From positions 1 through 55,430 of the forward strand of contig JAJFKK010000092.1 in the NCBI GenBank assembly GCA_021773245.1: DNA of 55,430 bases. The letters run 5' to 3'. Position numbers and translations under genes: made by a program. Numbering within the stretch: position 1 is the first letter of the stretch; every line of letters begins with the position of its first letter. The notes beneath the pieces were generated by a model that was given only the letters and a program-made list of their open reading frames with translations, was not told the DNA's origin and did no database searches. Origin of the DNA: Gammaproteobacteria bacterium (GTDB lineage: Bacteria; Pseudomonadota; Gammaproteobacteria; Eutrophobiales; Eutrophobiaceae). Of this stretch, positions 25,181 through 27,990 are shown one piece after another.

Positions 25181-26074
25181 TCAATCATAATAACCAAATT
25201 GTTTTAAGGCTTGCTCTGAATCAGTCCATTTCTTTTTAACTTTGACCCATGTTTTTAAATTAACTTTTTTATCAAACATTTCCTCAAGGTCTTTTCTTGC
25301 TTCTTTGCCAACTGATTTTAATACACTACCCTCTTTTCCAATTACAATTGATTTCTGTCCTTTTCTTTCGACCCAAATACACGCATGAATATGAAGAACA
25401 TTATTTTTTTCCTTAAATTCTTCAATGGTAATAGATAAATTGTAAGGCAATTCATCACTTAATCGTGTCATTAACTTCTCTCTCACAAATTCTGCTGCAA
25501 AAAACCGTTCACTTCGATCAGTAATTTGGTCTTCCGGAAACAAGGCTGGCCCTAGTGGAAGTTTTTTTAATATAGCTAACTCCAGATCGTCAACTCCTGT
25601 TCCTTTAATAGCTGAGATAGGAATCACTTCATCAAAATCAACTTCTTTTGATAGCTTACTAATAAATGTCAATAAATCATTTTTATTAGATACTTTATCC
25701 ACTTTATTAAGAACAAGGAATATTTTTGCATCCGATGCTTTTTTTAATAATTCAATGACGTTTTCATCTAGCTCATTCCACTTAGATGCTTCTACAACAA
25801 ATAAAATAATATCAATATAATTTAACGTATTTGATACTTCTTTATTCATATGTTGATTCAAAGCTATCTTGGGTTCTTTTTGCAACCCAGGTGTATCAAT
25901 AAAAATAATTTGGGATTCAGAAGTTGTTTTTATACCAAGTAAATTCCAACGTGTTGTTTGTGGCTTCCTCGATACAATGCTTAATTTTTGTTCAAGAAAA
26001 TAATTAAGCAATGTTGACTTGCCTACATTCGGTCTTCCAATAATACTTACATAGCCAGTTCGAAATTTTTCCAT
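25181..26074 (-). CDS. era: GTPase Era
   Basis: This 297-residue GTPase assists 16S rRNA maturation and 30S assembly. The G domain shows G1 GRPNVGKSTLLN, G3 DTPGLQ and G4 NKVDK. The C-terminal KH domain carries the RNA-binding IVIGKEGSVLKSVGKEARKD, followed by NLKTWVKVKKKW. It is 21 bases downstream of rnc; the rnc-era-recO-pdxJ order is the standard one. Confidence 0.95.
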   Translation of the reverse strand: MEKFRTGYVSIIGRPNVGKSTLLNYFLEQKLSIVSRKPQTTRWNLLGIKTTSESQIIFIDTPGLQKEPKIALNQHMNKEVSNTLNYIDIILFVVEASKWNELDENVIELLKKASDAKIFLVLNKVDKVSNKNDLLTFISKLSKEVDFDEVIPISAIKGTGVDDLELAILKKLPLGPALFPEDQITDRSERFFAAEFVREKLMTRLSDELPYNLSITIEEFKEKNNVLHIHACIWVERKGQKSIVIGKEGSVLKSVGKEARKDLEEMFDKKVNLKTWVKVKKKWTDSEQALKQFGYYD

Positions 26075-26095: not shown

Positions 26096-26761
26096 TTATT
26101 TATGTTTTACATCCAATATGGACATCGCTTTTTCTGCTGCCGCTTGTTCCGCTTTACGCTTACTCGTTCCTTTTGCAATAACAAGTTCATTTAAAGAACT
26201 AATTGCACATGTCACTGTGAATTCTGGCTGATGAGACGAACCTGATTCATTAATGATCTCATAAACAGGCACATCTTGTTTTCGCGATTGAAGGTACTCT
26301 TGCAATTGTGTCTTTGCATCTTTCTTGATATCAGCCGAATTAATGCCAGCAAGATGTGTTTCATACATACCCATAATAAATTCACGACATGATTCAAGAT
26401 TAGAGTCCAGGTAGACTGCACCAATTATTGCTTCAAGTGTATTAGCTAATATAGAGTCACGGCGCCAACCACCACTTTTTAATTCGCCTGCGCCAAGCTT
26501 TATCTTATTGGAAAGCTCAAGTTCCTTTCCAATTTCTGCCAGTTTTTCTCCTTTGACTAAGGATGCTCGAAGTCTGGTTAGCTCACCTTCAGATGCATCA
26601 GGAAACTTATCATAGATATAATCTGCAATAATAAACCCTAGTATTGCATCACCTAAATATTCCAGACGTTCGTTATTATTGCTTCCAAGGCTTCGATGAG
26701 TTAGAGCTTGTGTTAACAAGCTCTTATTTTTGAATTGATAATCAACTATATGAGTAGTTAT
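26096..26761 (-). CDS. rnc: ribonuclease III, apparent ATA start
   Basis: This is a 221-residue double-strand-specific endonuclease. The catalytic core is NERLEYLGDAILGFIIADY with the acidic metal ligands, and the second acidic site is in LANTLEAIIGAVYLDS. The dsRNA-binding domain runs from about 150 to the end (DAKTQLQEYLQSRKQ and GTSKRKAEQAAAEKAM). The frame is closed by a TAA just upstream. The only candidates are ATA at 26761, ATA at 26749 and TTG at 26719. The TTG would remove the first helix (VDYQFKNKSLL). The ATA at 26761 lies seven bases after GGAG and overlaps the upstream DUF4845 stop as ATAA, so it is the preferred start. Confidence 0.85.
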   Translation of the reverse strand: MTTHIVDYQFKNKSLLTQALTHRSLGSNNNERLEYLGDAILGFIIADYIYDKFPDASEGELTRLRASLVKGEKLAEIGKELELSNKIKLGAGELKSGGWRRDSILANTLEAIIGAVYLDSNLESCREFIMGMYETHLAGINSADIKKDAKTQLQEYLQSRKQDVPVYEIINESGSSHQPEFTVTCAISSLNELVIAKGTSKRKAEQAAAEKAMSILDVKHK

Positions 26762-27156
26762 TTTTTAGCTCCAGGGATCTCTAACGACTCTTCAATATCT
26801 ATTAATAGATAAAAGTTCTTAAATAGAGGTTTTCTGTTTTCATAAGTGAAAGTCAAATATTTTTTGCCGTCTTTTGATTTTTTTACTTTCAAATAGTTTT
26901 TTACATTTAATATGTCGAAATCATAGAGACCATTTATCTTCGCATTCTTAACAAAAAGTTCTCTCAACATTTTTGTTGTTTTTCTCCTTTCGGCTGGTTG
27001 ATTAAGAACCGATGTCATAGTGCTTTTTATACTCATATGCTCATTGTAGAGAGGAAAAACTCTGATGCCGAAAGCGATGAAACACCCAATCATGGCTAAA
27101 ATAATGAAAATACCTAATGCAGTCATGCCTCCTTGGCGTTGTGATATATGCTTCAT
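26758..27156 (-). CDS. DUF4845 family membrane protein
   Basis: This is a 132-residue protein with a short Gly/Gln-containing N-terminus (SQRQGGMTALGIF) and one membrane helix (about residues 10-30), then a predicted extracytoplasmic domain ending LLIDIEESLEIPGAKK. The N-terminus resembles a pilin-like, cleaved membrane start. DUF4845 genes typically lie between lepB and rnc in Pseudomonas and relatives, as here. The function is unknown. Its stop codon TAA shares two bases with the proposed ATA start of rnc, and its last codons carry the GGAG that would serve rnc. Confidence 0.8.
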   Translation of the reverse strand: MKHISQRQGGMTALGIFIILAMIGCFIAFGIRVFPLYNEHMSIKSTMTSVLNQPAERRKTTKMLRELFVKNAKINGLYDFDILNVKNYLKVKKSKDGKKYLTFTYENRKPLFKNFYLLIDIEESLEIPGAKK

Positions 27157-27177: not shown

Positions 27178-27990
27178 TTATTTTAATATTGTACCAATTC
27201 TTTTGAAATCTATGCCACCATTCTCGCCGTCCCAATTCATCCAGATCATAAAAGCACGGCCGACAAGGTTTTCATCCGGTACAAAGCCCCAATAACGACT
27301 GTCTTTACTATTATCTCTATTGTCACCTAAAACAAAATATTGTCCTTCAGGAACGACAGTTTCAAGCTCTTGAGAACTTCTATTAGGTGAAACCAATATC
27401 TCATGCTTAACATCTTCCAAATTCTCTACTCTCAACGATGCACCATCCATCATAAAGCCAGAGCCGTAGGCATTATACCGTCCATTTAATACTTGAGTCA
27501 CTGATACATCATTGATATATAGTGTTTTATTATAATAAGAAACTTTATCTCCCGGTAAACCAACAATACGTTTTATAAAAGGAATACTAGGATCTTCAGG
27601 ATATCTAAAAACAACGATATCCCCTCTTGCAGGAGTTTTATTTTTGATGATTTTATAATGCACAACGGGCAATCGAAGACCATAATCATATTTATTAACT
27701 AATATAAAATCGCCTATTAACAGGGTTGGCATCATTGAACCAGAGGGAATTTTAAATGGTTCGAAGATAAAAGAACGTAGTATTAATACAATAAAAAAAA
27801 CAGGAAAAAATGATTTTGCATATTCAACAATAAGCGGAAGCTTTAACTCTTCACTTCCTTCAGCATCATCTTTTACAGCAGTTTTCTTTTGATTATTACG
27901 TTTTGCAGCAAAAAATAAACTATCGAGCAACCAGATTATTCCGCTCAAAAAAGTTAAAAATACTAATAATGCTGAAAAATCAAAATTCAT
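27178..27990 (-). CDS. lepB: signal peptidase I
   Basis: This is a 270-residue inner-membrane protease that removes signal peptides. Two N-terminal membrane helices (about 5-27 and 57-76) flank a charged cytosolic loop. The catalytic serine is S85 in PSGSMMPTL and the general base is K140 in [28 protein letters not shown] is the third signature. Its ATG overlaps the lepA stop as ATGA, giving translational coupling, the same order as E. coli lepA-lepB. Confidence 0.96.

Follow-up and report, generated by a model that had tools for sequence, protein, structure and literature searches.

We propose, with a high degree of confidence, that the ribonuclease III gene (rnc) of a gammaproteobacterial clade starts at an AUA codon (position 26761 in the window) as an inherited trait, the coupling of this start to the upstream gene and the origin of the junction being part of the explanation. 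The window, i.e. the whole stretch of DNA that was analyzed, comprises 55,430 nucleotides (contig JAJFKK010000092.1 of assembly GCA_021773245.1). Sequence comparisons indicate that a non-canonical rnc start is real and conserved in the clade, most likely as an AUA that overlaps, as AUAA, the stop of a DUF4845 gene. Use of this AUA, translational coupling and a low level of RNase III are what we infer from the arrangement. The features concerned are the following.

26096..26761, minus strand: rnc (RNase III), 221 aa counted from the ATA at 26761, stop codon TAA at 26098-26096
26759..26761, minus strand: proposed rnc start ATA, the sole start-like codon with a Shine-Dalgarno (SD) sequence at the right distance
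26758..26760, minus strand: DUF4845 stop codon TAA, overlapping the ATA as ATAA
26769..26772, minus strand: GGAG, SD-like, 7 nt before the ATA and within the DUF4845 coding end
26765..26767, minus strand: in-frame TAA bounding the rnc frame on its upstream side
26747..26749, minus strand: second ATA, rejected as a start (unconserved and 19 nt from the SD)
26717..26719, minus strand: TTG, taken to encode an internal Leu of the first helix
26758..27156, minus strand: DUF4845 protein gene (PF16137, 55.4 bits), the upstream partner in the proposed coupling
25181..26074, minus strand: era, downstream of rnc, with an ordinary ATG
27178..27990, minus strand: lepB, overlapping lepA by an ordinary ATGA (27990-27987), used as an in-genome control

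The rnc product carries a catalytic domain and a dsRNA-binding domain, as expected of an RNase III, with Pfam matches to PF14622 (120.9 bits), PF00636 and dsrm PF00035, all above cut-off. Its top match among solved structures is 7r97_A (4e-66), and the signature NERLEYLGD is intact. The gene is alive and under purifying selection, because dN/dS is 0.08-0.13 (about 0.1) in close species pairs and the catalytic signature is preserved. Position 114 of E. coli RNase III is an Asp, a metal-site residue, and the corresponding residue in the window is Asn (N107 of the 221-aa product). Asn is found at this position in 18 of the 19 clade species, in most of the order and in 7/107 of a class-wide sample. 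It thus seems to be an order-wide variant that is not peculiar to the ATA clade, for which reason membership in the RNase III family is not in doubt.

On the minus strand, the start region (26775-26717) reads CTGGAG (26774-26769), CTAAAAA, ATA (26761-26759), ACT ACT CAT, ATA (26749-26747), then GTT GAT TAT CAA TTC AAA AAT AAG AGC and TTG (26719-26717). The DUF4845 gene ends in GCT AAA AAA TAA, and rnc lies in the -1 frame relative to it; the proposed start and the DUF4845 stop have two bases in common (ATAA, 26761-26758), giving a 4-nt stop/start overlap. An earlier note on this DNA had stated that the TAA at 26767-26765 closes the rnc frame and that the early candidates are limited to two ATA codons and a TTG, and both statements are correct to the base (ATA 26761, ATA 26749 and TTG 26719 before the conserved core). 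Its placement of ATA 26761 seven nt past GGAG, in an ATAA overlap with the DUF4845 stop, can likewise be read directly from the sequence. Non-canonical codons further upstream, at -24 (GTT/GCT/ACT/ATT), were discarded as candidates; they are inconsistent among species and lie within the DUF4845 end.

The same junction was read in 58 relatives and then in 53 genomes of the family, which also constitute the order sample, the order search having added none. The clade is monophyletic in the rnc tree and comprises genera g1, g7, g17 and g6, with 19 species. In 18 of these, rnc is without ATG, GTG or TTG at its start. An ATA overlapping the DUF4845 stop is present in 13/19 (ATAA in 11; ATAG in G001 and G007). 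Among the others, G005 and G008 have GTA(A) at the overlap followed by ATC, G016 has GTA(G) with an ATA two codons further, G030 has ATC directly after TAA with no overlap, and G068 has an ATA without overlap. With these five species deviating, strict conservation applies neither to ATA nor to the overlap; lack of NTG is kept more strictly than ATA identity. The sole canonical rnc start in the clade is the GTG(A) of G027 (L015). Its SD is poor (-0.9 kcal/mol), which would fit a trade-off between start and SD strength. A close relative, the marine-type MAG Thiotrichaceae bacterium UWMA-0311 (L032), has a junction identical to that of G004. The earlier note had asked whether relatives carry ATGA here: congeners have ATAA or ATAG, two have GTAA, and none has ATGA, a result that does not refute its reading. 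It had also questioned base 26759, which is A in the window and in the overlap-bearing relatives of the clade (ATAA, ATAG, GTAA, GTAG); G027 (GTGA) is the sole one with a G.

The deviating species bear on the possibility that a re-initiating ribosome loosely picks some other non-canonical codon near the stop, such as ATA 26749 in the window or ATC/GTA in G005/G008. As such loose choice would predict, three species have GTA as the overlap codon and an ATC or ATA shortly after it; but ATA 26749, at 19 nt from the SD, is not matched in the relatives, and 26761 alone combines SD, overlap and conservation, so that we consider loose choice unlikely. A start at TTG 26719 or an equivalent Leu codon would shorten the protein by 14 residues and is the choice expected of gene finders, TTG being a canonical start codon. 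We judge it very unlikely. The codon is not TTG in 13/19 clade species, and its presence in the window is accounted for by the protein, as a Leu codon of the conserved LLxxALTHRS motif. It would be residue 15, within the first helix (residues 13-20) of the AlphaFold model (pLDDT 90.8), which bears out the earlier claim that a TTG start would cut this helix. In G016, the first canonical codon lies past the conserved part of the first helix. Ten clade species have their first downstream canonical codon at or past the catalytic ERLEYLGD motif, and canonical initiation in these species would therefore yield a dead enzyme.

A -1 ribosomal shift at the DUF4845 end, producing a fusion protein, deserves very little credence. 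It is invited by the A-rich end in the window (GCT AAA AAA TAA) and by the -1 position of the rnc frame, but the last DUF4845 codon varies among relatives (CAA, GAA, CAG or AAA), which have no slippery sequence in common; no conserved RNA structure was found at the DUF4845-rnc junction, and outgroups carry separate NTG starts. An error in an ATGA junction, conceivable in one of the 183 contigs of a draft genome, has a negligible probability and is refuted for the clade, as junctions of this kind are found in 18/19 related species, represented by separate genomes.

The preferred start, AUA at 26761, is also set apart by the SD upstream of it. Across 20 species, the SD duplex before the proposed codon has a mean of -7.4 kcal/mol, compared with -3.1 for 6803 internal AUH codons (p ~1e-8, the species being related and the value not tree-corrected). 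Five neighboring ATG genes have a mean of -2.3; a comparison with the first ATG of long ORFs was left unused, being polluted by spurious frames. In the window species itself (G000) the GGAG duplex reaches -5.6 kcal/mol, only within the best 16%. The spacing of 7 nt after GGAG falls in the 5-9 nt range of a usable SD of the infC type. The initiator tRNA (GGGCTCATAACCC) has the anticodon CAU in 14/14 genomes tested, and its pairing with AUA would therefore be mismatched at the third position; no special initiator tRNA was seen among these 14 genomes. At the level of tRNA genes, the predicted decoding is thus by the ordinary CAU initiator. In vitro, IF3 has little tolerance for such third-position mismatches (PMC10158994). 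The infC gene of the same genomes starts with ATC or ATT after GGAGG, or with ATA in G013 (loci L086-L103), which implies that the lineage already initiates on codons disfavored by IF3.

Conservation of ATA by itself would be weak evidence, because A precedes 42% of stops and an A followed by a TAA stop often arises by chance. The lack of a canonical start was compared with a class sample of 107 other gammaproteobacterial families or genera, with one species for nearly every one of them. A canonical rnc candidate upstream of the core is present in 106/107, with G047, counted apart, as a further exception; the contrast with the clade gives a Fisher value of 1e-19, not corrected for relatedness. 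Within the same genomes, 16 neighboring genes lack a canonical start in 3 of ~275 cases, versus 18/20 for rnc, and all three exceptions are trivial (two genes shortened by a nearby stop or divergence, one with an ATG just outside the tested span). A genome-wide loss of canonical starts is rejected for the neighborhood on this count. The lepA-lepB overlap remains ATGA in most genomes, the lepA stop being TGA in 15/18, and lepB has a canonical start in all genomes compared. Weak starts and overlaps appear to be common for rnc across the class: in 70 species with a single candidate in the usual window, assigned by position only, the codon is TTG in 27, ATG in 24 and GTG in 19, and 44 of these starts, on the same positional assignment, are NTGA. 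In many of the sampled Gammaproteobacteria the start of rnc seems to be a TTG that overlaps the upstream stop as TTGA; such a proportion of weak starts is unusually high for a housekeeping gene.

Similar starts were encountered elsewhere. In G013, outside the clade, an ATA(G) follows GGGGGAGG, and genus g10 has ATG(A). A concatenated tree (lepA, lepB, era, recO, pdxJ) groups G013 with G020 of g10 (support 100); it was drawn rooted on G013 and does not by itself place the root. Because the two group together, either ATA would have arisen at least twice or g10 would have regained ATG. In another family, G047 (L031/L184) is without an obvious canonical rnc start and has ATC 7 nt after TGGAG, and its congener G202 (L185) has ATT at the same codon, plus a TTG upstream. 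In G026 (L024) and G034 (L039), rnc has no ATG, GTG or TTG near the start and an ATT overlaps the DUF4845 stop as ATTGA; G034 holds another rnc besides the copy matching G026, which suggests contamination of that genome.

Several known systems resemble this arrangement in part. Non-canonical starts are established for infC (AUU, AUC or AUA, serving IF3 autoregulation) and pcnB (AUU). The rnc start described here resembles both in being a conserved AUH codon of a housekeeping gene at which IF3 discrimination would be expected, and differs in that only the rnc codon overlaps an upstream stop. As for infC, no N-terminal AUG, GUG or UUG is conserved over the species (absent in 18/19). To our knowledge, rnc is not known to have an AUH start, nor RNase III a link to IF3. 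In E. coli, the rnc-era-recO operon is autoregulated through RNase III cutting its own leader; the enzyme is the same and era and recO lie downstream in both, whereas rnc here follows lepA-lepB-DUF4845, and no conserved structure was detected at its junction. In Staphylococcus aureus, infC and ccpN start with AUA and cvfC1 with AUU; non-canonical starts there yield ~10-30% of AUG, and those of ccpN and cvfC1 are conserved weak codons helped by the SD (PMC13009471). In these Gram-positive cases (ccpN, cvfC1) an extended SD carries the start and no stop/start overlap is described (PMC13009471), unlike rnc here. NTGA (-4 nt) overlaps with termination-reinitiation (PMC6728339, PMC12548453) have the same geometry, with two common bases and the SD within the upstream coding end, but rnc here has an NTA start and a TAA or TAG stop in place of NTG and TGA. 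The earlier likening of the junction to ATGA coupling is supported by NTGA at the same place in more distant relatives. No report of an AUA start for rnc or of an ATAA overlap was found in the literature consulted. As far as that literature shows, the ingredients are known and their combination is apparently unreported.

We hypothesize that the SD retains a ribosome that has finished DUF4845 at the UAA, and that this ribosome then re-initiates at the overlapping AUA using fMet-tRNA. Termination on DUF4845 would thereby feed rnc translation, as the geometry suggests (PMC12548453). IF3 would disfavor the third-position mismatch, and the arrangement would probably keep RNase III scarce and tied to translation of its neighbor. 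With regard to origin, the DUF4845 stop outside the clade is TGA in 16/23 junctions with a detectable DUF4845, mostly in or beside an NTG start, compared with 1/19 in the clade. The outgroups suggest that a single G-to-A change, at the base common to stop and start, is likely the simplest path from an NTGA overlap to NTAA. Such a change would be synonymous for the stop (TGA to TAA), and so harmless upstream, and costly for the start (NTG to NTA); the canonical overlap would have been restored solely in one of the species sampled, as GTGA. The DUF4845 end has roughly the same position in the clade and in the outgroups, and the clade rnc N-terminus is ~7 codons shorter than in most relatives. 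A single GTGA-to-GTTA change extending DUF4845 was dropped as a candidate for this reason, rnc having been shortened instead.

The weak start is either selected or merely tolerated. The rarity of TGA at the DUF4845 stop (1/19 versus ~21% elsewhere) is not significant (binomial ~0.07, hand calculation), i.e. the 19 clade stops give no significant signal of selection against TGA/ATG at the junction. It is possible, but rather doubtful, that the lineage keeps RNase III low through a selected AUA in AUAA, its output reading both DUF4845 translation and IF3 stringency. If true, this would be an infC-like control acting on an RNA-processing enzyme.

Clade-conserved AUA starts are known in bacteria for very few genes, and rnc would add a global RNA-processing enzyme to them. 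Its junction offers a clean evolutionary route, through a single base that the stop of one gene has in common with the start of the next, and suggests that an NTGA coupling junction can turn into NTAA or NTAG and last through many speciations. It also provides a testable case in which re-initiating ribosomes may be more tolerant of poor start codons than de novo initiation. Gene finders restricted to ATG, GTG and TTG will miss or truncate rnc in this lineage.
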